This document shows positions 9,268 through 40,451 of a DNA stretch of 40,451 bases, piece by piece. Source of the stretch: a virus. A program made the translations under genes and the position numbers. Where the stretch lies: IMG/VR virus record IMGVR_UViG_3300034073_001895, positions 1 to 40,451 of that record; one strand, written 5' to 3'. The notes below the pieces were generated by a model. That model saw only the letters and a program-made list of their open reading frames with translations, ran no database searches and was not told the origin of the DNA. Position 1 is the first letter of the stretch; every line of letters starts with the position of its first letter.

Positions 9268-10518
9268 TTACATTTTGTTATACAATCGCGATAGCGGAAA
9301 ATTACTATCTATTGTTACTTGGGTCAAAAGCTCCAACACGGTATTTGTCCCAGCCGGGATGCCGTATATTTTCCCATTAGGGGCAAGAACGCCGCCAATC
9401 CATCTTGTGTTTCCAACCCCTGTACTTACCGTCACCGTTCCAAAAGTTGTCCAAGTATTGTTGGATGGGTCAATTTCAAGCGCTCCGTTAATTGCGCGAG
9501 GGATTCCGTATATTTTCCCATTTGCGCCAATAACGCCGCCGTGCCATTTAGTTCCGGTTGCAAGCGTCCCAAAAGTTGATACCGATTTTGTTGCGGGGTC
9601 AAGCTCAATTATTGACGTTGCTGTCCACGGTATGCTGTATATTTTTCCATTAGGTGCAAGAACAGCCCCCAGCCATACCTGCGAAGCGGGTATATTTGTG
9701 CTTCCAAAAGTTGATACCGTTTTACCTACCGGGTCTATTTCAACTATATTTCGCGAAGCAATAGGCATTGCGTACAATTTCCCGTTAGGGGCAAGAACAG
9801 TGCCTTGATATTTGTCATTTCCAGCCGCAAGCGTGCCAAATGTTGAAACGCTTGGCACGGAAGGATCTATTTCAATTACATTAACTGCATTACTTGGAGC
9901 TGCATATATTTTTCCATTAAGCGCAAGAACACCAGCGCTATATTTTGCATTTCCGTTAATCGAACCAAATGTAGTATAAGTATCATTTGACGGATTAATT
10001 TCTAAAACGGAAACTGAATTCCACGGTATGGCATATATTTTCCCATTAGTTGCAAGTACACCGCCAACCCACTTATTAATGCCTGCAAGCGTGCCAAATG
10101 TTGAAATAGTATTGTCGGAAGGATTAATAACTAAAATATTTTCAGAATTATGCGGGATAGCATATATTTTCCCATTAGGCGCAAGCACACCGCCCTGCCA
10201 GTTAAAATCCACGCCAAGCGTAGAGCCAAAAGTGCTATAAATTAATGATTGCGTAATTGAAATATTACTTATTTCGGTTAATGTAGCATCAATATCAAAG
10301 GTGTCATATCCTACCTTGTCCCATGCGGGAAAACCTGACACCGCTTGTTGTGCAAAGCGGTACGAGTTAATATATATCTGAGAAAGCCCCCTGCGCGCCC
10401 CGCCAAAAAGCAAGGCCAATGCCAGCATCACCGCGCCCGGCCAGCCCACGGAGGAGAGCGCCGGGGCATCGGTGAGCAGCAGCAGGGGGAGGGCGAAAAA
10501 CACGCTATAATATTTCAT
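9268..10518 (-). CDS. Seven-repeat beta-propeller-like protein
   Basis: A 416-residue protein. Residues 1-45 contain two hydrophobic segments (about 1-20 and 29-42). From about residue 95 there are seven repeats of 43-47 residues, each with the pattern STFG...W.GGVLAPNGKIYAIP....VLEIDPS, ending near residue 400. Seven such four-strand units fit a seven-bladed propeller, a fold often used for binding glycans or proteins. It lies after a glycosyltransferase in the tail-fibre region, so a receptor-binding or virion decoration role is likely. The N-terminal ~60 codons are strikingly GC-rich while the repeats are AT-richer, which suggests a module fusion. The start overlaps the preceding stop by ATGA. 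Confidence 0.7.
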   Translation of the reverse strand: MKYYSVFFALPLLLLTDAPALSSVGWPGAVMLALALLFGGARRGLSQIYINSYRFAQQAVSGFPAWDKVGYDTFDIDATLTEISNISITQSLIYSTFGSTLGVDFNWQGGVLAPNGKIYAIPHNSENILVINPSDNTISTFGTLAGINKWVGGVLATNGKIYAIPWNSVSVLEINPSNDTYTTFGSINGNAKYSAGVLALNGKIYAAPSNAVNVIEIDPSVPSVSTFGTLAAGNDKYQGTVLAPNGKLYAMPIASRNIVEIDPVGKTVSTFGSTNIPASQVWLGAVLAPNGKIYSIPWTATSIIELDPATKSVSTFGTLATGTKWHGGVIGANGKIYGIPRAINGALEIDPSNNTWTTFGTVTVSTGVGNTRWIGGVLAPNGKIYGIPAGTNTVLELLTQVTIDSNFPLSRLYNKM

Positions 10519-11370: not shown

Positions 11371-12771
11371 TTAATTTTTCCGATATAGGATAGTTACTTT
11401 CAGCCCTTTGCCCTTTGTGGTCGTGCCAACCTGATCTATGCCTATCGTAACTTCAGCATCGTTGGCTATTGTGCTATCGCTTATCACCGGAGCAGTCCCG
11501 GCTTCCAAGCTCGTTTTTTCACTTGCATCTATTGTAATTCTCTGACTTAGTATTGATACCCCAGTCTCGTTAATGTCCACTTCAATAGCCGCGCCCACCG
11601 GAGCCGTGTTCACATTAGCCCGCACACCAAGCACCGTGAACGCGAACGGTGCCCGGAACGTTACCGCCGCTGTCGCCGTGTCTAAGTCCGTTTTTTCATC
11701 GCTGCACGCGATAATCATAGCCATTGTATCACTAACCGCCGCTGTGAGCCTGCCGTCCTGATCTACCGTGATACGGGGATTCACGTAGCTGCCCGCCGTT
11801 ACCGCCGTCGTGTCGAGCTGGTTTGCCCCGACGCTGTTGTTAGCGAGCTTCAGCTTAGTTACCGCCGCCGTGTCAATCGTCCACACCGTGCCGCTACTTG
11901 TTACGTCAATGTCGCCTTTGTCGCCGTCGGCCACACCGCCGGAGCCTGTCCACGATATTGTGTCATTAGAAATACCAATGCCAGTGCCTGCGATCAGTAT
12001 GTTTTGTTTTAAGTTAATCCGGTTAGAGAGGGTGAGGGTATCCGCCTCTCTTAAGTACGGTGCAAGCATGGCCGTTGTGTCCGATATATTCAGCTTAAGA
12101 TTGATACGGTTGGATAGCGTCAGCGTATCCGCCTCCCTAAGATACGGTGCAAGCATGGCCGTTGTGTCCGATATATTCAGCTTAAGATTGATACGGTTAG
12201 AGAGGGTGAGGGTATCCGCCTCCCTAAGATACGGTGCAAGCATGGCCGTTGTGTCCGATATATTCAGCTTAAGATTGATACGGTTAGAAAGGGTGAGCGT
12301 ATCAGCCTCACGTAAATACGGGGATAGCATGGCCGTTGTGTCGTAAACCGTAATCAAGAAGTTGGTATCTGCCGCAATGGTGCCCGACGTGGTGATCGTC
12401 CCCCCGGTCAGCCCCGTGCCCGCCGTGATGCTGGTAACGCCGCCACCACCGCCACCTCCCGCGCCGATGCTATCCTTGACCGCCTGGGCCAGGTCTTCCC
12501 AGACTACCGCGCCTGCGTCAATGCTCCAGGTATCGCCGTTGTTGGATACGGTAATATCACCTTTGTCGCCCACCAGCTTAACGCGCGTGTACTTTGCAAG
12601 GCTATCCAGGCGTAGCTTTTTCCAGGTGCCCTCAACGTAGTAGAACTTTAGCGAATCGCGTGCGGTGCCCTGGCTTATTTCGTCGTCGCTTAGCACGTTA
12701 ACCGTGTCCTTCGACGTTTGCGCCGAGGCGAGGGCCGGGAGGAGGAATAAGAAAAAAAGTATCTTTTTCAT
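11371..12771 (-). CDS. Fibre-like tail protein with four 29-residue repeats
   Basis: A 466-residue protein with a Sec-like signal (MKKILFFLFLLPALASAQ), a GDKGDITV...WSID segment near 68-85, a Gly-rich run (103-111) and four tandem copies of a 29-residue unit (144-259; DTTAML.PYLREADTLTLSNRINLKLNIS pattern). A second GDKGDI segment follows, then a beta-rich C-terminus ending TILYRKN. Composition and repeats are typical of trimeric tail fibres. The GDKGDI and QAVKDSI blocks also occur in the larger fibre protein upstream, so the two are paralogous mosaics. A signal peptide on a tail fibre is unusual. Confidence 0.7.
   Translation of the reverse strand: MKKILFFLFLLPALASAQTSKDTVNVLSDDEISQGTARDSLKFYYVEGTWKKLRLDSLAKYTRVKLVGDKGDITVSNNGDTWSIDAGAVVWEDLAQAVKDSIGAGGGGGGGVTSITAGTGLTGGTITTSGTIAADTNFLITVYDTTAMLSPYLREADTLTLSNRINLKLNISDTTAMLAPYLREADTLTLSNRINLKLNISDTTAMLAPYLREADTLTLSNRINLKLNISDTTAMLAPYLREADTLTLSNRINLKQNILIAGTGIGISNDTISWTGSGGVADGDKGDIDVTSSGTVWTIDTAAVTKLKLANNSVGANQLDTTAVTAGSYVNPRITVDQDGRLTAAVSDTMAMIIACSDEKTDLDTATAAVTFRAPFAFTVLGVRANVNTAPVGAAIEVDINETGVSILSQRITIDASEKTSLEAGTAPVISDSTIANDAEVTIGIDQVGTTTKGKGLKVTILYRKN
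11995..12342 (-). repeat. Four tandem 87-bp coding repeats
   Basis: Four in-frame copies of an 87-bp unit encode the 29-residue repeats of the fibre-like protein. The two central copies are nearly identical at DNA level, while the outer copies have diverged, as expected from recent expansion by unequal recombination. Confidence 0.9.
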
Positions 12772-12774
12772 TGC

Positions 12775-15132
12775 TTAGTATTTGTGTACGATTATTTTGA
12801 ATAACGCTTTTGGGGGATTAAGTGTGCTGCCAGGATTGGTATTGTGAAATCTGATTTTGACCGTGTCGGCAGCGCTTACATAGGCTGCATAAATCGCATA
12901 TTGACCGCTCGCCATCGTCATTACCGCTTCCGGTATGCCAAGCGTAACCGGATCGCTAAGCGCCGCGCCAGTTACCGTTACGGTTTGCTCCAGCGAGCCT
13001 ATCCCGGTAATGGAGGAAAAGTCTATGCTATCCGACGCAACAAGTATTTTCTGTTTCAATGCCCCGCCGGATATTTCAAGCCCCGTGCCAATGTCTGCCG
13101 CCGTGAGTTCGCCGTTGCTGTTTTTCCCGTAGATGCTATCAAGTGCGCCAGGTGCGCTCACGCGGAATTTCACAACGCCGTCGCCGCCAATGCGAAGGTC
13201 AGCGCCTGGGGTGGGGGAGGTCGTTGCGGCATTGTTGGCATACATGGCAATAATACCGCCTTCCATTCTAATTTCCGTTTCGTTGGAATCAACAATACCG
13301 CCGTTTTGAAAGCCGTATTGCGTCATCGTTTGCCTGTTATCGTAAAACGTATTGGTAACACTTACATAGTTTTCGCGTATGTCTACAAAGTCGTATATAT
13401 CCGATGTGTCCTTGAATAGCATTTGAAAGCCATTCATAAACATTGTGCGGTTTCCTGTCAGTGTCCCGTCCTGCTTGTATATCGTGCTGTCTTTTGTCTG
13501 CTGCCAAATCCCGCCTCCCGTGTGCCTCAATATGTCGCCCGCGCTGCCGCCGCCTACGCTAACATCGTGCAAGTTGCGAAGGTAGCTGCCTGGGTCAATG
13601 CGCACGGCGAGGGTGCCGTTCGTCGCCTTGTGTACTACAAAGGCAATGGGTAGTTTCAGCCTGTTGCCCGGAGGTGGTACTTGAGTAAGTTCGCCAGGAT
13701 AAAAATAATCCGCGTATAGCACCGCGCCTTCAGTATATGCGTTCGTGTTGATTTTCCGTATTTTCCCCTGGGTCATTACATACCCATCCTCCCCCGGCGC
13801 AATGTCCTGCGCCGCAATGCCCAGCAGGTACATAGCATCTACGCTGCCGTCAGCTATCATGTGTTTGACCTTGATACGCCCGCTATTGCCCAGGGTGCCA
13901 GTTGCACGCACCACCGTGCCCTTAGTGAGCGTTACGCTTGTGTCGTTACGAACGTACCAATGCCCCGGTAAAATGGGTATTTCCACCCCGCCGTTAGCAC
14001 CATAAACCAAGCTGCCCTTATCATAATTATATTGCAGCTCTAAGCTATCCGGATCGCTTTCATTGTTGTTGAAGGTGATGCTATCCGTCGGCAGGGAAAA
14101 GCCCAATAAAATGCTATCCCTTACCGCCTGCGTCAAGTTATCCCAGTCTACCACCCCGGTATCAATCATCATCACCGCGCCGGCATCGCTTACGATAATA
14201 TCGCCTTTGTCCCCGTTCGGGATGGGATCGAATTGCACTTGCTGCCCGTTGACCGTTAAAAATATCGTCGTTTGGCTACCTGTTTCCACATAGCCCACAA
14301 CGGCGTTACCATCCCAGGGGAGTTGCACGTCCGTAACGTTGTCAACCACTACGAACGTTGCGCCGGATGCGCCCTGCGTTACGCTAAGGTTCGTAACGCT
14401 GTTAATTGTCATCGTGCTATCCGTTGCGCCCAGCGTAATGTAATCCCCGGCCAAAAACGTAACGCTGTCACCCGTGCTGCTTAGCAAATTGACCGGGCTT
14501 GTTGCGCCGGAAAAAGACAAGTCCGTCTCGCCCGTGCCACCTTGCGCAATGCTATCTTTCACCGCCTGCGATAGCATCGTATAATCAATGTGCCCGGTCG
14601 GTATCGTTGCGCCTATTGTTATTTCGCCGTCCTCGACCGCAACGGTCTCCGTGATGCTAATTAGCCCGGTGCCCGTTATCGTTACGGCGTGCGAAGTTGT
14701 TACGGTCGTTATAATGCCCACCACCGCGCTGCCGTCCCAGGGTAGGCGAACGTCCGTAACGTTATCCACCACCACCTCCGCACTACTTCCGTCCGTGTCA
14801 GTTCCGCTCAAGTACAGCGTCGCCCCGTTCGCCCCATCAGCCCCAACGCCCAGCTTTTGCACGCGACCCTGCACGGGCTGCCAGCCGCCGTTCGTCTTGA
14901 TATAGCGGTATAGCTTATCATTGATTGTGTCCTGAAGATAGAACGCGTTATTCATATTGGCCGGCTTAATCGCGGTCGTATCGCTAAGCCTGCCCCGGTA
15001 AACAAGTCCGTCGCCAGTGGTCTGAAAGCCCAGGCGTTGCTTGTTCCCGGTAGCAGGGTACTGCCCGAAGGCAGCCCCTGCGGTCAAAAAAACATACAAA
15101 CTAAAAAGTAGTATTTTAAATATCCCTTTCAT
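12775..15132 (-). CDS. Large tail-fibre protein
   Basis: A 785-residue protein. The N-terminus has a signal-like sequence (MKGIFKILLFSLYVFLTAGAAFGQ). A long Thr/Val/Asp/Gly-rich beta region follows, with repeated blocks such as VVDNVTDV.LPWDG (twice), QAVKDSI and GDKGDIIVSD. The C-terminal ~110 residues look like a separate beta domain ending LFKIIVHKY. This is the composition of a tail fibre or tail-spike stalk with a C-terminal receptor-binding tip. The start overlaps the upstream tail-hub gene by ATGA. GC content is high compared with the early genes. No catalytic motif is evident. Confidence 0.72.
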   Translation of the reverse strand: MKGIFKILLFSLYVFLTAGAAFGQYPATGNKQRLGFQTTGDGLVYRGRLSDTTAIKPANMNNAFYLQDTINDKLYRYIKTNGGWQPVQGRVQKLGVGADGANGATLYLSGTDTDGSSAEVVVDNVTDVRLPWDGSAVVGIITTVTTSHAVTITGTGLISITETVAVEDGEITIGATIPTGHIDYTMLSQAVKDSIAQGGTGETDLSFSGATSPVNLLSSTGDSVTFLAGDYITLGATDSTMTINSVTNLSVTQGASGATFVVVDNVTDVQLPWDGNAVVGYVETGSQTTIFLTVNGQQVQFDPIPNGDKGDIIVSDAGAVMMIDTGVVDWDNLTQAVRDSILLGFSLPTDSITFNNNESDPDSLELQYNYDKGSLVYGANGGVEIPILPGHWYVRNDTSVTLTKGTVVRATGTLGNSGRIKVKHMIADGSVDAMYLLGIAAQDIAPGEDGYVMTQGKIRKINTNAYTEGAVLYADYFYPGELTQVPPPGNRLKLPIAFVVHKATNGTLAVRIDPGSYLRNLHDVSVGGGSAGDILRHTGGGIWQQTKDSTIYKQDGTLTGNRTMFMNGFQMLFKDTSDIYDFVDIRENYVSVTNTFYDNRQTMTQYGFQNGGIVDSNETEIRMEGGIIAMYANNAATTSPTPGADLRIGGDGVVKFRVSAPGALDSIYGKNSNGELTAADIGTGLEISGGALKQKILVASDSIDFSSITGIGSLEQTVTVTGAALSDPVTLGIPEAVMTMASGQYAIYAAYVSAADTVKIRFHNTNPGSTLNPPKALFKIIVHKY

Positions 15133-22725: not shown

Positions 22726-23294
22726 CTGAAGTAGCTTACCCGATATGCGTTATAAAGGTGCATTGCGGCAGTGGGTAGGGTCATTATTGCGTCCTGCCTA
22801 TCCTGGTACGCCGCTGCAATGGTTTTGAGCATCCCTATCTTTATAGGCGCCGGTACGTTTGCCGCATTTGCAAAGCCTGCCTGATACGTTACTTTTACCT
22901 TTGCACCCTGTAACGAAACTTCAGGAAACGTAACGTTTTCTTTGCGGATAATTAGCGGTGGTTGCGCTGTCGGATGCGTTTCGTATAAATCGGTGTTGAG
23001 CGTTTGTTCTGTCCCTCCCGTTGGCGTGTATTTGACGTGCGTTACCGAAATTAGCGGGCTAATAGATAGCCGTAATCCGTAATGGTAAAAGTTATCAAAG
23101 TACTCTTCAATGGTTTGCGGCAAAAGTGCCATTTGCAGATATTTTTCAGCCTCCATTCGAGCGGACGAAATCAGCAGGGCAATAAGTGCGTCATCATCTG
23201 AAGAATCTACCTTCAGATAGTTTTTGACCTCAGAAGCGGTTAAAGGCTCCGTTGCAGGTGCTGTCGCAATCTTATATGTGCCCGTTTCAAACAT
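22722..23294 (-). CDS. Head-tail connector (gp6-like)
   Basis: A 190-residue protein with the phage gp6-like connector pattern. PLTASEVKNYLKVDSSDDDALIALLISSAR (about 17-46) is the characteristic helical start; a Tyr/Phe-rich middle and a strand-rich region with VKVTYQAG (about 133-140) follow. Such proteins form the ring beneath the portal. It is the first gene after the major capsid gene, separated by a 67-bp gap with a perfect hairpin (23308-23330), and overlaps the adaptor gene by ATGA. Confidence 0.8.
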   Translation of the reverse strand: MFETGTYKIATAPATEPLTASEVKNYLKVDSSDDDALIALLISSARMEAEKYLQMALLPQTIEEYFDNFYHYGLRLSISPLISVTHVKYTPTGGTEQTLNTDLYETHPTAQPPLIIRKENVTFPEVSLQGAKVKVTYQAGFANAANVPAPIKIGMLKTIAAAYQDRQDAIMTLPTAAMHLYNAYRVSYFR

Positions 23295-30779: not shown

Positions 30780-31682
30780 TTAAGCGGGCATATAATCCAT
30801 ATTCTCCCAACGCTCCTTAGAAATCAGATGATAACGCCTTTCCAACTTTGCGCCCTGTAAAGCGTTTCGCCATTCTTCGTTACGCGGTGTAATTACGTTC
30901 GTTTCCGGATCGTCATGATTCTGATGGATAACCATTGCGCGGATGTCTTGAGGTGTTACGGTATGATAGCCCAAAGCCCTTGCGCGGTCGTGCATTTCAA
31001 CGTCAACAGCTCCCCAGGCTTCACTTTCAAATACGCCTCCAAAGTCTCTCCAGCCGTCAGCGGTAAAACCTCCGAAAATCCAGGAACCCCAGGATAAAGC
31101 ACGGTCAATTGCACGGGCTGTATAGTCTGGGTTTCCATTGCCTTTTTCGTTTTCTTCATAGAAGTTTGGCAGTAGTCGGATTTGCTCTAAGCCTAAAGTA
31201 AGATCTACTTTGTCTATCCGCTTTTGCTGCTCAACCGTCAAATAGTACCCTTTGGCGTTAAAGCGGGCTTTCATTGGCCTTTGCAGGTACTTAATGCCCG
31301 TTTCGATTAATGCAAGCCCCGGTATAATTTCCGGATGCGTGATGAAGATATACGGGCATTTTGCGACGTGCAAAGCGTAGGCAATACCTGCATTGATGAA
31401 GGAGGCAGAATCGCGCCATTTGCCGGGCTGTTTTTCTAAGCGGGTATATTTGATGTGTAGGCCTAAATCGTCAATTGCGTAATTAACAACATCCCTGGTA
31501 TCATCTATTGACCCATCATCAAAAACGTGGATATAATAGTCCCGTTCTGTTTGATGCCCGTAATTTTCAAGCGAGCGCCAAAGCAAATGCCCGCGATTGT
31601 AAGTACCCATAATTACCGCCGCTTTGAAGGGTTTTCCGGTAGCTGGGTTGAGGTATTCTAATCTTGAATTAATGTTTGCCAT
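30780..31682 (-). CDS. GT2-like glycosyltransferase
   Basis: A 300-residue GT-A glycosyltransferase. AAVIMGTYNRGHLL (21-34) is the N-terminal nucleotide-binding strand, and HVFDDGSIDDT (52-62) is the GT2 acidic motif. A second region, FITHPEIIPG, and a later W-rich segment (SWGSWIFGGF) probably form the catalytic and acceptor site. It overlaps the RGP-like gene by 25 nt. It likely adds a sugar to a glycan in the cytoplasm, but donor and acceptor are unknown. Confidence 0.8.
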   Translation of the reverse strand: MANINSRLEYLNPATGKPFKAAVIMGTYNRGHLLWRSLENYGHQTERDYYIHVFDDGSIDDTRDVVNYAIDDLGLHIKYTRLEKQPGKWRDSASFINAGIAYALHVAKCPYIFITHPEIIPGLALIETGIKYLQRPMKARFNAKGYYLTVEQQKRIDKVDLTLGLEQIRLLPNFYEENEKGNGNPDYTARAIDRALSWGSWIFGGFTADGWRDFGGVFESEAWGAVDVEMHDRARALGYHTVTPQDIRAMVIHQNHDDPETNVITPRNEEWRNALQGAKLERRYHLISKERWENMDYMPA

Positions 31683-32677
31683 TCTTTGAGTCTTTTTTGG
31701 TAGTTGGTAATGTATTTGAGATCGGATTCACTTGCGTTTATGCCGCTAATGGCTATGTTGCCCGCAAAATGGCCTATCCTGTCTGCCATTGTTTCGTTCA
31801 ACTCCATCCCCGCCGCCTCTTTGCGCAAATTGACAAACACGTCAGATGCGCGTTCGTGGTAAATTAACGAATAGCCGGTAACAGCGCACGCGTTGTCAAA
31901 GAGATTGTCAATGGCAAATTTCATGGTAACGCCTGCCCAAATATCGGCGAAACGGTCGTATAAGCGTCCCGTTTCCTCTAAAGTACGCATTCCCATTGGT
32001 GCCTGATATGCCCAGGGCAAAAGCTCTTTTCTGAATGCCATATTCATGGCGCAAACGGGGAAAAATGTATGTTTTGGGATAGCGTTTATTGGAAACGCCA
32101 AATTCCGGACGTTTGGGTGTTGAAGCTGCATAATTGCGTCAAAATCCGGTACGCCTTCCCAAACGCCGTGAGATAACAAAGGGTAATATTCTTTGAGCTT
32201 GTAAGGCAGGCCCCGCATTCGGTAATAACTGTGTGTATTGTACCAGTCAACCGTTATAGTTTGCCTGAAGGCGTCAATGTGCTCCTGAATCGGGTCAGTA
32301 CCAGGCAGCGGGCTAACGTCGTCGTCGAGGCTGATGTATATGTCAGGATTGTAGCGCAATTTAGCTAAGGCAAAGCCATAATTTCGGATTGCATCGGTAC
32401 GGTTGTAGAAAATATCTTGATGTGCTTGTGTCATTGCGCGGAGAGCTACTTTTTCGTAATGATCCATCATTCCGCATCGGTAAACTGACGCTGTTGGATT
32501 TTCGCCGTCGTTGACAACAAACAATTCTACTCCGTGAGTGTAAAACAACTCCTGCCACTTCGGTAAAAACTCGTTCTCAAACAGCTCTGGCCGGATTGTC
32601 GGTACAATTACGGCAATGGTAGGATTTTCAGGTAGTGGCTTTACCTGGCTATCTTCAGGTAGTGATTTTACTTGCAT
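31658..32677 (-). CDS. RGP/UDP-arabinopyranose-mutase-like protein (GT75)
   Basis: A 339-residue protein that resembles plant reversibly glycosylated polypeptides over most of its length. Shared landmarks, from memory of the plant family, are AVIVPTIRP (22-30), YNRTDAIRNYGF (91-102), the DDD motif (118-120) in IYISLDDDVSP, RGLPYKLKE..P.LSHGVWEGVPDFDA (155-181), IPKHTFFPVCAMNMAF (200-215), IWAGVTMKF (246-254) and IYHERASDVFVNLRKE (272-287). Arg98 falls where plant RGPs have a functionally important Arg. Such enzymes convert UDP-arabinopyranose to the furanose form. Here it may supply or transfer an unusual sugar with the adjacent glycosyltransferases. It overlaps both neighbours. Confidence 0.72.
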   Translation of the reverse strand: MQVKSLPEDSQVKPLPENPTIAVIVPTIRPELFENEFLPKWQELFYTHGVELFVVNDGENPTASVYRCGMMDHYEKVALRAMTQAHQDIFYNRTDAIRNYGFALAKLRYNPDIYISLDDDVSPLPGTDPIQEHIDAFRQTITVDWYNTHSYYRMRGLPYKLKEYYPLLSHGVWEGVPDFDAIMQLQHPNVRNLAFPINAIPKHTFFPVCAMNMAFRKELLPWAYQAPMGMRTLEETGRLYDRFADIWAGVTMKFAIDNLFDNACAVTGYSLIYHERASDVFVNLRKEAAGMELNETMADRIGHFAGNIAISGINASESDLKYITNYQKRLKEWQTLIQD

Positions 32678-35830: not shown

Positions 35831-36385
35831 TTATTTTGGGCTTAATTTATGCCATTGCCCTGCCTTTTTCCAAAGTTTCGATGCGACAGGCTTATCCGAT
35901 ATTTCCGTATAGCTGCCCCGGTCCTGATAATCCTTCTCCAAAAGCGAAGAGGGCACATAGTAGGCAATTTGGCCAATCGGCATACCTCTGTAAATGCGGA
36001 TAGGTTGCACTGCCTGCATTTCAAGTGTCCAGTGTCCTTTGAATCCTAAGTCGCCAAATCCGGCGCAAACGTGAACATGCAAGCCCAAACGCCCAACGCT
36101 GCTTTTGCCTTCCATTACGGGGATATGCTCCAGGGTTTCGGTATATTCAAGCGTTGCGGCTAAATACAGCGTGTTGGGCTTCAGGATATAGCCTTCTTCA
36201 GGTATTTCCCAAATTGTTGCATAATTTAGCTTTGCAGCGTCCAGGATTTCATCATCATATTTCATCAAGTATTTGCCCAAATGCACGTCAATCGAGTTTG
36301 TGCCAACGCTGCCTGGGATAATGGGAGATACTACAATTTTGCCGGATGCAAGGCATTTTTGTAGGTCGTGGTGGGTGAGGATCAT
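35831..36385 (-). CDS. dcd: dCTP deaminase
   Basis: A 184-residue protein with the dCTP deaminase/dUTPase fold. MEGKSSVGRLGLHVHVCA (91-108) matches the family nucleotide-binding motif EGRSSLARLG, and FGDLGFKGHWTLEM (110-123) carries the expected catalytic Glu (E122). It converts dCTP to dUTP, or to dUMP in bifunctional forms, feeding dTTP synthesis during phage replication. The ATG at 36385 (MILTHHDLQ) is chosen; an upstream TTG would start inside a perfect hairpin. The length fits the family. It is directly downstream of the helicase-methyltransferase. Confidence 0.88.
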   Translation of the reverse strand: MILTHHDLQKCLASGKIVVSPIIPGSVGTNSIDVHLGKYLMKYDDEILDAAKLNYATIWEIPEEGYILKPNTLYLAATLEYTETLEHIPVMEGKSSVGRLGLHVHVCAGFGDLGFKGHWTLEMQAVQPIRIYRGMPIGQIAYYVPSSLLEKDYQDRGSYTEISDKPVASKLWKKAGQWHKLSPK

Positions 36386-36401
36386 GTTTGGAAAAGTTGA
36401 A

Positions 36402-36426
36402 GGCAATGCCTACTTAGGGCATTGCC
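36402..36426 (-). other. Perfect 9-bp hairpin before dcd
   Basis: GGCAATGCC and GGCATTGCC enclose a 7-nt loop between the methyltransferase stop and the dcd ATG. It is followed by TTCAACTTTT on the minus strand, a poor T-run, so termination would be weak. It may separate the two messages or act on dcd translation. Confidence 0.6.
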
Positions 36427-36434
36427 GTTAGTGA

Positions 36435-38627
36435 TTAATCAAAGATGGTAATTTGAAGCGAAGCAGATACCGCGTTTTTGCAGTTTTTTACCGCTGTTTG
36501 GTAGTAGCTGTCTTTTAGCTCTATGCCTATTGCTTTGCGCCCGTTTTTGATGCTCATGTACGCCTCTGACCCTATGCCCAAAAACGGAGTGAAAACTGTT
36601 TCGCCTGGGTTGCTCCAAAGATTGACTAAGCGGTGGATAACTTCGAGTTGGAGCGGTGCGATATGTTTTTCATCGCCTAAGTCCGTACCCTCTTTGCCGT
36701 TTAAAACGTCGGTACGCTTAATGTCCATCCAGACGGGAGATGCCCATTTTTGCCAAACGTCGAGCGGGAAGTTTTGACGGGTGATGTTGGTTACAGGAGT
36801 CCATTCGTTTTCGTCGCCGTCCCATTTGCGAAAAACGGTAATGTATTCGGCCATTCCGATTCCGGTATAGCTGGAATCGCTTGTAAGGGTCTTGTAAAGC
36901 AGGCGTTGTGTTTTGGTGCGCTGCATCTCCAAAACAGGATCTGTCCAGATGGTAATTTTAGAATGCAGCTTAAAACCTGCATCAAGTACAGCTCGTGTGT
37001 GTTCGCCGGTAAAATCGTACATGCCCGTATATCCTGAACTGTTTTTATAAACTCCCAGGTCTTTGGTATGGCAGCACATTAGCCGGCCAGGCTTCAGTTT
37101 TTGATACATCTTTTTGAGCAAAAACCCGTATTGCTCGAAAAATTCGTCGTGGTTTTCGCAGTTGCCCATATCCTGAATATAATCAGAATAGGTAAACAGC
37201 GAGCTAAATGGAGGCGAAAAAACAATCAAGTCCAGGCTGTTATCCGCAATGCGGTCAATTTCTTGAACTGTATCGCCGTGCATTAGCCACATATTGCCGT
37301 CTTTGTACTCCTCAAAGGTGTAATTTTCCCTTAAACGGTACTTTTCGTTGTTGATCTGGTTGTTCATTTCTGTTTGCATTTCTTCAAACTGTTTTTGTTT
37401 GCGGTCAATGGCAGCAATTACGTTTTCCATTGTATCGGTGGTGATGATATAGATGTTGACTTCCTTTTTTTGCCCAAAACGATAGCTTCGCCGGATTGAT
37501 TGATATAGGCTTTCAAAGCTGAAATCCAGGGAGGCAAATACCTGATTGTTGCAGTTTTGAAAATTCATTCCGAATTGCGCAATCTTTTGCTTTGTAATCA
37601 AAACTCGAAATTCGCCGTTGGCAAAGCCTAAAAGGTCGCGCTCTTTATCTTCAGGCTTATCGCTGCCTGAGACTTCAATAGCGCCAGGTATCAACTTTTT
37701 AAGCCTTTCGCCTTCTTCGTTATGCCTTATCCAAATCAAAAAAGATTCGCTTGACTGGTTTACGATCTCTGCCACTTTTTCAAGACGTGGCAAAATTGAT
37801 AGCCTTAGTTCTTGATTGAAATTTGTGGCATTTACGATGCCGTCGGCAAAAAGGCGGTTTTCAGCGGTGCGCCCTGTTTTTACGACGTGTTCCACATAGT
37901 TCAATCCTGGAAGTTCGTAACCGTCCATTTTAAACCCGATATCTGACGGCTTTGATAGCATTGTTGCCCATGATGAAATCCAACCGTAAAAGTCCTTTTT
38001 GGCGTGAGATTTCAGGCGATAGTTATTCATGCCTTCTTCACGAACAAACCACCGTGAACGCATATCCTGAGCGTCCAGGACGTTTAAAAACTCGCTATGG
38101 TTTCCGATTTCGTTTAAATCGTTTGGTGAAGGTGTTGCGGTGCAAGCGAGCTTGAATTGCGTCTCTGCGAATGCCTCGATAATCCGCTTTTTGGTTTTTC
38201 CGGTGAATGTTTTTAAGATGCTCGATTCGTCCAAAACAACGCCTGCAAACTGATCTGGATTGATGTTGTCGAGCTGTTCGTAATTGCTTACAAACACTCC
38301 AGGGCCAAATACATCGCTTTTTAAACGCTCAACGTGAATGCCAAACTTTGCCCCTTCCTGGACAGTTTGACCGGATACCGCTAAAGGTGTAAGTACTAAA
38401 ACAGGCTGTTTGGTGTGCTTACTAACTTGGTTTGCCCATTCGAGCTGCATAAGCGTTTTACCCAGTCCGCAATCGGCAAAAATGGCGTATTTGCCTTGCT
38501 TTAAAGCTGTTTGCACGATGTGTTTTTGAAAGTCGAACATTGCCGGGTTTAAGTCCTGCAAAGCAACCTCAAACCCACTTTCGGCAATGCGCTTTTTCTT
38601 TGTCTCTAAAAACTGTAAGTAATCCAT
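36435..38627 (-). CDS. SNF2-like helicase fused to a DNA methyltransferase
   Basis: A 730-residue protein from the ATG at 38627; an in-frame ATG at 38693 lies inside the leader hairpins. The N-terminal helicase has DCGLGKT (52-58), DESS (133-136), TATP (163-166) and QSIRRSYRFGQ (376-386). The C-terminal part (about 445-730) is a beta-type N4/N6 DNA methyltransferase: SPPF (471-474) as motif IV and FLGIG...GRKAIGIEL (about 682-703) as motif I. SPPF is more common in N4-cytosine enzymes. A helicase-coupled methyltransferase without a nuclease suggests protection of phage DNA from restriction, as proposed for P1 DarB. The leader upstream is an attenuator. Confidence 0.85.
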   Translation of the reverse strand: MDYLQFLETKKKRIAESGFEVALQDLNPAMFDFQKHIVQTALKQGKYAIFADCGLGKTLMQLEWANQVSKHTKQPVLVLTPLAVSGQTVQEGAKFGIHVERLKSDVFGPGVFVSNYEQLDNINPDQFAGVVLDESSILKTFTGKTKKRIIEAFAETQFKLACTATPSPNDLNEIGNHSEFLNVLDAQDMRSRWFVREEGMNNYRLKSHAKKDFYGWISSWATMLSKPSDIGFKMDGYELPGLNYVEHVVKTGRTAENRLFADGIVNATNFNQELRLSILPRLEKVAEIVNQSSESFLIWIRHNEEGERLKKLIPGAIEVSGSDKPEDKERDLLGFANGEFRVLITKQKIAQFGMNFQNCNNQVFASLDFSFESLYQSIRRSYRFGQKKEVNIYIITTDTMENVIAAIDRKQKQFEEMQTEMNNQINNEKYRLRENYTFEEYKDGNMWLMHGDTVQEIDRIADNSLDLIVFSPPFSSLFTYSDYIQDMGNCENHDEFFEQYGFLLKKMYQKLKPGRLMCCHTKDLGVYKNSSGYTGMYDFTGEHTRAVLDAGFKLHSKITIWTDPVLEMQRTKTQRLLYKTLTSDSSYTGIGMAEYITVFRKWDGDENEWTPVTNITRQNFPLDVWQKWASPVWMDIKRTDVLNGKEGTDLGDEKHIAPLQLEVIHRLVNLWSNPGETVFTPFLGIGSEAYMSIKNGRKAIGIELKDSYYQTAVKNCKNAVSASLQITIFD

Positions 38628-38630
38628 GAT

Positions 38631-38720
38631 AAAAAAATTAGCCCCCACCATGTAGGAGTATGGCGAGGGCAATTTGGTATAAGATACCAGCATTTTACAG
38701 GCTCCTACCCCGGTAAAATG
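38631..38720 (-). promoter_or_regulatory. Three-hairpin leader with loop-loop complementarity and terminator
   Basis: Minus strand: hairpin 1 CATTTTAC/GTAAAATG with a 14-nt loop (38720-38691); hairpin 2 TGGTAT/ATACCA with a 3-nt loop (38689-38675); hairpin 3, an 11-bp stem with two G-U pairs and an 8-nt loop (38670-38641), then TAA and seven T (38637-38631). GTAGGAG in loop 1 (38708-38702) is complementary to CTCCTAC in loop 3 (38658-38652). The helicase-methyltransferase ATG is 3 nt after the T-run. No known riboswitch class is recognised. Confidence 0.65.
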
Positions 38721-38727
38721 CGTTTTG

Positions 38728-38759
38728 CAAATGTAGAAATTAATTTTGGATAAAGCAAC
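38728..38759 (-). promoter_or_regulatory. Promoter of the helicase-methyltransferase leader
   Basis: Minus strand GTTG (38759-38756), 20 bp, TACATTTG (38735-38728), a good Bacteroidota-type promoter. Predicted start near 38722, at the foot of hairpin 1. The -33 box overlaps the stop codon of the DEAH helicase. Confidence 0.7.
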
Positions 38760-40195
38760 TATTTAGCCGACAAAGTTTGCCCCCACCCAAACTTATCCCT
38801 ATTCACATGAACCCACCCCGGTTTCCAACCCATCAACATAACAAACCGCTTTGCCTCTTCGATTGTATGCAGGTTGTGAAGCACCCAGAACGGTTTTATC
38901 AATCCAGCCTTACACATAGCTGCCTTTTGTTCTAAAGTCGCTCCAGAGGCTTTATATCGCCTTTCAGCGGGGGATAATTCGATAAGCTCAACGGGAAATC
39001 CCAGTTCTTTTTCTTTTTGCCCAAATTCGTGTTTGCAAGTCGGGCACATTCGTACGGATACGGCTAAAATGGCATTGCATTTGGGGCAGTCTTTTGCAGG
39101 GATAGCGCCTTTTTTCTTTTTGGCGGCTTTGGTCAGTTTCCAGGACCTATCTTCCTCCCAAAACCCATGACGCTTTACATTCTCGCCAAAATCCAGCAAA
39201 TTAAAGTGCGTTTTACCTGGGTGAATGCGGCTGCCCCTGCCTGCCATTTGCAGGAAAAGCGGCAGAGATGTTGTTGCCCGGTATAAGATAATGGTTTCAA
39301 CGGCAGGCTCATCGAATCCGGTAGTCAGGATACCCACATTGCAAAGCACTGCATCGGGCGTTTTCTTAAACCAAGCTAATATCCTGACCCGATCCATCTT
39401 GCTCATGTTGCTATCCAGGTGTTTTGCGTTAATGCCCCTGAGCTGCATTTTTTGGCATAACTCCAACGAGCTATCAATATTCGGCGAAAAGGCAATGGTC
39501 TTGCTGCCTGGGCACAAACGCAAATAGTTTTCGATTACGCCCTCATATACGCGATTTTTTGAATAAGCATCCCCCATGCTTTTTTCGTCGTAATCCGTGC
39601 CCTTCATTTTTACGTCGGAGAGGTCCACCGGCACGCCGTAGGTCCTGCATGGTACCAAAAAGCCTTGTTCGATAAGATCCGGTATGCCGGTCGTTTCAAC
39701 TATTGCTTGGTAGTTTTTGTCCAGGCTAATTTGTGCCCCTTTTCGCATAGGCGTTGCAGTTGCCCCTATAACCGCCGTATTTTGCCCTATATGCTCGAAT
39801 AGCTTATCAAAGGACTGTTTGTGTGCCTCATCAAAAATAATTAAGTCAAAGCCCTTTAAAAGGGCTAAATAGCGTGCATCGCGCGTGCGTCGTGCCAGGG
39901 TTTCAACCATGCCCGTGTAAAGTTGGCCGGCAAAGTAAGATTCACGCCCTGCCTCAATCCGGTGGACCTGCATCCCTAAGTTATGCAGCGCCCTGCCTGA
40001 TTGCTGCATAAGCTCGATTCTATCTGTAACAATCAATACCTTTTTGCCCTTTTGCAGTGCCATTTTTGCCATGTGCGAAAAGATTACCGTTTTACCGCTC
40101 CCGGTAGGACTGCAAAGGATTAAGCGGTTTTTGCCCTGCATGAGCAAAGACCTCATTTCTTCAATTGCTTTTTCTTGATATGGTCTGAGTTGCAT
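38759..40195 (-). CDS. DEAH-box helicase with zinc-ribbon tail
   Basis: A 478-residue superfamily-2 helicase of the type-I-restriction-like/UvsW-like group. Walker A is PTGSGKT (30-36), motif II DEAH (122-125), motif III ATATP, and motif VI QMAGRGSR. A C-terminal four-Cys ribbon (CPKCNAILAVSVRMCPTCKHEFG) follows the second RecA domain. In phages such helicases unwind branched DNA, R-loops or recombination intermediates. It is the first gene after the origin-like region and precedes the helicase-methyltransferase. The ATG at 40195 is the only good start. Confidence 0.88.
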   Translation of the reverse strand: MQLRPYQEKAIEEMRSLLMQGKNRLILCSPTGSGKTVIFSHMAKMALQKGKKVLIVTDRIELMQQSGRALHNLGMQVHRIEAGRESYFAGQLYTGMVETLARRTRDARYLALLKGFDLIIFDEAHKQSFDKLFEHIGQNTAVIGATATPMRKGAQISLDKNYQAIVETTGIPDLIEQGFLVPCRTYGVPVDLSDVKMKGTDYDEKSMGDAYSKNRVYEGVIENYLRLCPGSKTIAFSPNIDSSLELCQKMQLRGINAKHLDSNMSKMDRVRILAWFKKTPDAVLCNVGILTTGFDEPAVETIILYRATTSLPLFLQMAGRGSRIHPGKTHFNLLDFGENVKRHGFWEEDRSWKLTKAAKKKKGAIPAKDCPKCNAILAVSVRMCPTCKHEFGQKEKELGFPVELIELSPAERRYKASGATLEQKAAMCKAGLIKPFWVLHNLHTIEEAKRFVMLMGWKPGWVHVNRDKFGWGQTLSAK

Positions 40196-40248: not shown

Positions 40249-40330
40249 GTATCCAGGTTTGCAACCTGTATACAACCTGGCTACAACCTGGCTACACTCT
40301 GAAAGCCCCGCCGTTGTTGAGTTTTTCAGC
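40249..40330. other. Origin-like intergenic region, right part
   Basis: From 40196 to the junction no gene is supported. The region holds a perfect inverted repeat CAGGTT-TGC-AACCTG (40254-40268) and two abutting ACCTGGCTACA copies (40275-40285 and 40286-40296). On the circle it continues directly into the repeats at 100-204, giving about 355 bp between the primase stop and the DEAH helicase start. Confidence 0.5.
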
Positions 40331-40451
40331 ATTTGTAGCCATGTTACAGGTTATTTCTATTTTATAAGAGTTAGGAATATTATAATAGAGGGGAGTAATA
40401 AAAAAACACTTCCGCTAAAGTCTTTAAAAACCTGGCTACACCTGGAACCTG
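40331..40451. repeat. Terminal redundancy, right copy
   Basis: Exact copy of bases 1-121. See the left copy; together they close the circle at about 40,330 bp. Confidence 0.95.

Follow-up and report, generated by a model that had tools for sequence, protein, structure and literature searches.

The leader and its neighboring genes

The window, by which we mean the whole 40,451-nt stretch of viral DNA that was analyzed, has ends that share a 121-nt terminal repeat, and the record is therefore probably a complete phage genome. On its minus strand, a leader sits between two helicase genes. Upstream lies a ResIII/DEAD helicase gene (38759..40195, 478 aa), the end of which adjoins the promoter, and downstream lies a gene for an SNF2/DEAD-type helicase fused to an N6/N4 DNA methyltransferase (36435..38627, 730 aa); both were assigned by Pfam, the latter by its helicase and N6_N4_Mtase domains. 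The protein homology of the helicase-methyltransferase starts at residue 24 of a longer ORF, that is, at the ATG at 38627-38625, and since homology begins there, this ATG, which follows the U-run of the leader, is likely the start codon.

The predicted promoter consists of a -33-like TTG (38756..38758) located 20 nt upstream of TACATTTG (38728..38735), which matches the -7 box of the Bacteroidota sigma-A type (TAnnTTTG). The flavobacterial promoter consensus has TAnnTTTG at -12 to -5 (PMC9723704), and the Bacteroidota -7 box consensus is given likewise in PMC7366714. By the flavobacterial consensus (PMC9723704), transcription is predicted to start at 38723. The TAnnTTTG box alone was no rarer than chance in the window (42 seen, 37 expected), so our prediction of a Bacteroidota-type promoter from the -33 and -7 elements rests on their context.

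Three hairpins follow in a row. HP1, GCATTTTAC[CGGGGTAGGAGCCT]GTAAAATGC (38690..38721; loop in square brackets), has a 9-bp stem, which stood out against shuffled flanks (p=0.005) and is kept by compensatory changes in relatives; two more G-C pairs are optional and would leave an 8-nt loop, GGTAGGAG. HP2, TGGTATCTTATACCA (38675..38689), is a 6-bp hairpin with two compensated pairs. HP3, AATTGCCCTCGCCAT[ACTCCTAC]ATGGTGGGGGCTAATT (38635..38674), is a predicted intrinsic terminator with an 8-nt loop, a compensated stem made of an 11-bp core and 4 bp beyond a bulge, and a U7 tract (38631..38637). An earlier sequence-only reading had described this stem and U7 correctly and had placed them right before the start codon; the U7 tract in fact ends 3 nt short of the ATG and is not directly adjacent to it. 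The loops of HP1 and HP3 are exactly complementary over 7/7 nt, GTAGGAG (38708-38702, within the loop motif GGGGTAGGAGCC, which is common to relatives) facing CTCCTAC (38658-38652). Both hairpins can show an 8-nt apical loop that consists of one purine and the 7 nt matching the other loop. The leader thus combines a GC-rich hairpin and U-tract shortly before a start codon, as attenuator leaders do, with an exact complement between a 5' hairpin loop and a terminator loop, the feature by which we define a "kissing-terminator" leader.

The fold of the leader was computed at -38.5 kcal/mol (z = -5.0; 0 of 200 shuffles), with about -9 kcal/mol for the 7-bp kissing duplex alone. We then searched the window for the combination of a promoter, a 7-nt loop complement, an HP1 stem of 6 bp or more and a terminator. 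The window contained this combination a single time, whereas 60 dinucleotide-shuffled windows did not contain it at all. The predicted promoter, the three hairpins and the 7-nt match between hairpins 1 and 3 are present as the sequence-only reading had listed them. Another candidate, at 22936 on the plus strand (7-nt complement TGCAAAG with TAnnTTTG upstream), was set aside as a probable chance match, since it is antisense to the coding region in which it falls and lacks a first hairpin. Two ATGs upstream of the helicase-methyltransferase are in frame with it, at 38693-38691 and 38651-38649. The latter lies inside the 3' arm of the terminator and reads MVGANFFI-MDY... into the gene, and an in-frame ATG in the terminator arm also occurs in three related leaders (L424, L435 and L436).

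Relatives of the leader and covariation of the contact

We compared the leader with the upstream regions of ~60 homologous genes from viral contigs. The closest phage with a helicase-methyltransferase (L002, 84% identity) had only an ordinary terminator at this place, and many other relatives of the gene likewise had a plain terminator instead of the leader, indicating that the leader is dispensable. In several other homologues, a promoter was followed by a first hairpin and a terminator with loops complementary to each other but different in sequence from those of the window. A scan of viral contigs for the loop code of the window at the right spacing returned 14 contigs, of which L424, L435 and L436 carried the whole window-type leader; the L435 leader precedes a helicase without methyltransferase and the L436 leader a ParB-like gene. 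Because these relatives change the HP1 stem, the exact pattern GTAGGAGNCTGTAAAATGC had no match in viral contigs. A further pattern, TTTGC..TTGAAGT..GCAT, was dropped since its 120 matches were mostly chance matches in coding sequence, and a few of the 54 loci of the wider loop-code set (L441, L447, L456 and L480) are such coding-sequence matches as well.

In L424, L435 and L436 the stems of HP1, HP2 and HP3 were kept by compensatory changes at seven pairs, a number reached in 0 of 500 shuffles, and were 94.9% paired, while slid controls were 32-46% paired. Since the relatives L424-L437 and the 54 loci of the wider set were selected by the kiss sequence itself, only their stems, promoter and terminator count as independent evidence. 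The kiss is invariant within this family; compensatory change thus affects the stems in the window's own family and the contact in sister families. A loop motif, GRGGUnGnAGCC (DNA: GRGGTnGnAGCC), is common to the window, L006, L007, L339 and L343, and when the two hairpins were aligned by hand, its two variable positions showed three and four types of base pair, without any loss of complementarity.

Covariation of the contact was clearest in a family of 29 distinct leaders, obtained from homologues of one DUF6291 gene together with three helicase-methyltransferase leaders. In this family the terminator loop forms 9 bp with the nucleotides that open the predicted RNA. Here 99.6% of cells were paired, seven of the nine pairs had changed on both sides, and 71 cells were compensated (0 of 500 shuffles), with slid controls 31-45% paired. 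In a second sister set, of eight leaders, the contact was 100% paired and four of seven pairs were compensated. The model built from the 29-leader family (R1) did not detect the window leader; what the sister families have in common is a plan and not a sequence. The kissing segment differed far more than most neighboring positions (0.41 vs 0.17 and 0.26 vs 0.07 differences per site) while remaining complementary, and hairpin P2 of the 29-leader family was as variable as the kissing segment (0.445). An ATGAAA is invariant in this family (L244-L283), while the frame and length of the short ORF vary by member. The sequence-only reading had proposed that an attenuator-like leader could form a contact between its loops, and had staked this beforehand on covariation in homologous leaders; such covariation was clearly present and supports the proposal.

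Loop complements at other phage terminators

We also examined terminators independently of any loop code. All strong terminator hairpins of the retrieved loci were taken, and the 75 nt upstream of each were searched for a complement of the loop longer than that in shuffles. With a TAnnTTTG-like promoter upstream on the gene strand, 44 of 90 terminators had a loop complement at p <= 0.05, a count to be read with the fact that the promoter filter and the 75-nt reach were chosen after the first examples had been seen. The corresponding counts were 11/124 without a promoter and 16/257 on the opposite strand. When the test was repeated for loop and arms of the promoter-preceded terminators separately, the upstream complement was to the loop in 46/90, to the 5' arm in 1/90 and to the 3' arm in 3/90, the arms being at chance; after removal of near-duplicates the contrast for the loop was 26/58 vs 27/359 (odds ratio 10, Fisher p = 1.5e-11). 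In none of 48 cases did the pairing run at least 2 nt into a terminator arm. The data thus gave no alternative structure that would exclude the terminator. Because the complement is confined to the loop and stays off both arms, the kiss and the terminator can coexist, which speaks against a textbook terminator/antiterminator switch and for a terminator with a tertiary contact. The earlier proposal that the contact decides whether the terminator acts therefore stands as to the contact and is weakened as to a mutually exclusive switch.

Of the 44 kissing leaders, 37 had an ATG-started ORF beginning no more than 30 nt from the terminator. Among other gene-strand terminators the count was 44 of 170 (26%), and this difference argues for a role in cis. 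We detected no excess of loop complements in 400 kb of Bacteroides chromosome, and one leader subtype was nearly absent from 296 cellular genomes. Related leaders precede helicases without methyltransferase, ParB-like, DUF6291, GIY-YIG/T5orf172 and other genes. Most relatives are metagenomic contigs, with hosts inferred from the promoter type and from cultured relatives; leaders were also present in the cultured phages Cellulophaga phi10:1 (near 10337), Flavobacterium morran9-1 (near 14285), Cellulophaga Nekkels_1 (two leaders) and Flavobacterium FCV-3 (near 40452). Phages with two leaders carried two different loop codes (L044, L045, L046, L006, L007, L026, L043 and L401). Taken at the level of sequence, these results point to a widespread, uncatalogued class of kissing-terminator leaders in Bacteroidota phages to which the window leader belongs, a wider phenomenon than the sequence-only reading had assumed.

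Comparison with known RNAs

The window leader had no match in Rfam, either at the gathering threshold or at E<=10, and 19 loci with related leaders were unmatched at E = 1. No riboswitch covariance model in Rfam, for SAM or any other known ligand, matched the window leader or its relatives. The sole match was a c4-2 RNA (RF02944) at L049:565-640, with 46 bits against a gathering score of 41; in this related phage it lies immediately upstream of the counterpart of the window's helicase-methyltransferase gene. The c4-2 RNA belongs to the C4 clan and, like the window leader, is a phage-borne leader RNA with a terminator-like closing stem; however, it forms a three-way junction, whereas the window leader has three hairpins in a row. 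We therefore rejected c4-2 or C4 antisense RNA as the identity of the window leader, its covariance model being unmatched even at E = 10. A 2017 survey of structured RNAs is said to describe c4-2. C4 RNA acts on its own transcript through loop pairing and controls the antirepressor of P1/P7.

With attenuators and pseudoknotted riboswitches such as preQ1, the window leader shares a structured leader, an intrinsic terminator next to the start codon and a loop-based tertiary pairing, together with a promoter that here is predicted, but its class has no mutually exclusive antiterminator (the loop is targeted and not the arms) and no recognized ligand core. The plasmid kissing-loop antisense systems ColE1 RNAI/RNAII and pT181 attenuation use loop-loop recognition with a variable code in a conserved frame. 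The 7-nt loop-loop match here resembles theirs, although the window leader has both loops on one transcript and no antisense gene. In HK022 (put) and lambda (nut), a phage leader RNA governs terminator read-through for early or replication genes; unlike the window leader, these RNAs act on the polymerase and on downstream terminators and have no complement to the terminator loop itself. A literature search, with many journals outside its coverage, retrieved no description of kissing or pseudoknotted phage terminators, which is weak evidence.

How the leader may work

We consider it probable that the element is a cis-acting leader of ~90 nt with its own promoter, terminated by default 3 nt before the ATG and carrying the kiss. 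The predicted promoter would start the leader RNA, transcription would end by default at the intrinsic terminator, and the helicase-methyltransferase would be made from read-through. The predicted transcript, of ~90 nt and probably released as a short RNA, agrees with the earlier suggestion that the leader may release an RNA of about this size. The terminator loop and the HP1 loop would form the 7-bp contact, which could arise before the 3' arm of the terminator is transcribed and would be part of the terminated RNA, without competing with the terminator arms. Such a contact may shape terminator folding and the stability of the short RNA, and control might be exerted by an RNA or a protein that reaches the first loop. 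The analysis shows the anatomy, the covariation, the restriction of the pairing to the loop and the position ahead of genes, and we infer the use of the promoter, the termination, the way in which the kiss acts on it and the signal. A terminator is usually regarded as no more than a hairpin, but in these leaders the terminator loop supplies one side of a conserved tertiary contact. Bacteroidota are among the most abundant phyla of gut and sea, and little is known of the timing of phage genes there. The leaders in cultured Cellulophaga and Flavobacterium phages make the function of a kissed terminator directly testable.

Two other readings also give the contact a function, and we regard both as unlikely. 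In one, the kiss is a kinetic antiterminator that stiffens the terminator loop and slows closure of the stem so that polymerase escapes, and a protein or RNA disturbing HP1 would restore termination. The loop strand is indeed transcribed ahead of the 3' arm, which allows the contact to form first, and the 7-bp duplex alone was computed at about -9 kcal/mol; however, such a mechanism would be expected to involve pairing with the arms, which was at chance for both, and the final structures are compatible, and we hold it to be rather doubtful. In the other reading, the two loops serve as a code for self-recognition, by which the short pseudoknotted RNA would act in trans, recognizing the terminator loop of same-code leaders only and shutting off these leaders as they are made. 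C4 RNA and the antisense loops of plasmid incompatibility are precedents, a C4-clan RNA precedes the same gene in L049, and leaders of one genome carry different codes. We give this possibility some weight because the code varies more than most of the sequence around it and is yet always self-complementary, as in antisense systems where specificity matters. That variability is suggestive of a trans role at most, since hairpin P2 is equally variable, and neutral compensatory drift could explain it; moreover, an intramolecular contact normally beats one in trans, and the different codes per genome are statistically unremarkable and few. If true, the code would define an RNA-based regulon for replication genes across many Bacteroidota phages, serving copy-number sensing or control, or immunity groups among related phages.

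The remaining explanations fit the comparative data poorly. Translation-coupled attenuation, in which ribosomes starting within the leader open the terminator, appears quite improbable. The window frame is open into the gene both from the ATG at 38693 and from the one in the terminator 3' arm, the latter also in L424, L435 and L436, and ATGAAA is invariant in the 29-leader family, but leader ORFs differ in frame and length among members, several leaders lack an ATG (L006), and a stretch of 22 open codons is expected by chance in roughly a third of cases; leader-peptide attenuation was rejected because the ORF frames are not conserved. A ligand riboswitch, for example one in which SAM feeds back on methylation, would suit a leader and terminator before a methyltransferase and could draw on the conserved motif GRGGUnGnAGCC. 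We hold it to be highly improbable, as the window leader lacks both a large conserved core and an Rfam riboswitch match. The link to SAM that the sequence-only reading had found attractive is not supported, since the same leader also stands before genes that use no SAM (helicases without methyltransferase, ParB-like, DUF6291 and GIY-YIG/T5orf172). The view that HP3 simply terminates the upstream helicase gene and that the kiss is due to chance accords with the plain terminators found before the helicase-methyltransferase gene in many relatives; given the 0/60 shuffled windows and the test of 90 terminators, and contradicted as it is by the covariation, this explanation receives almost no weight.

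Other features of the genome

Iteron-like repeats, GTAGCCAGGTT, lie near both record ends, at 40249-40439 and 5-203 of the window. Nine copies with at most one mismatch were among the matches listed, compared with 0.4 expected in the whole window, and some of them fall in the shared terminal repeat; the repeats possibly mark a replication origin or a recombination site. Three 87-nt tandem repeats (11998-12342) and a series of ~130-nt repeats (9356-10233) occur inside minus-strand coding regions and are likely repeated domains of structural proteins. By Pfam, the regions 30780-32677 and 35831-36406 encode proteins of glycosyltransferase family 2, of the RGP-like type (reversibly glycosylated polypeptide) and of the dCTP deaminase-like type.
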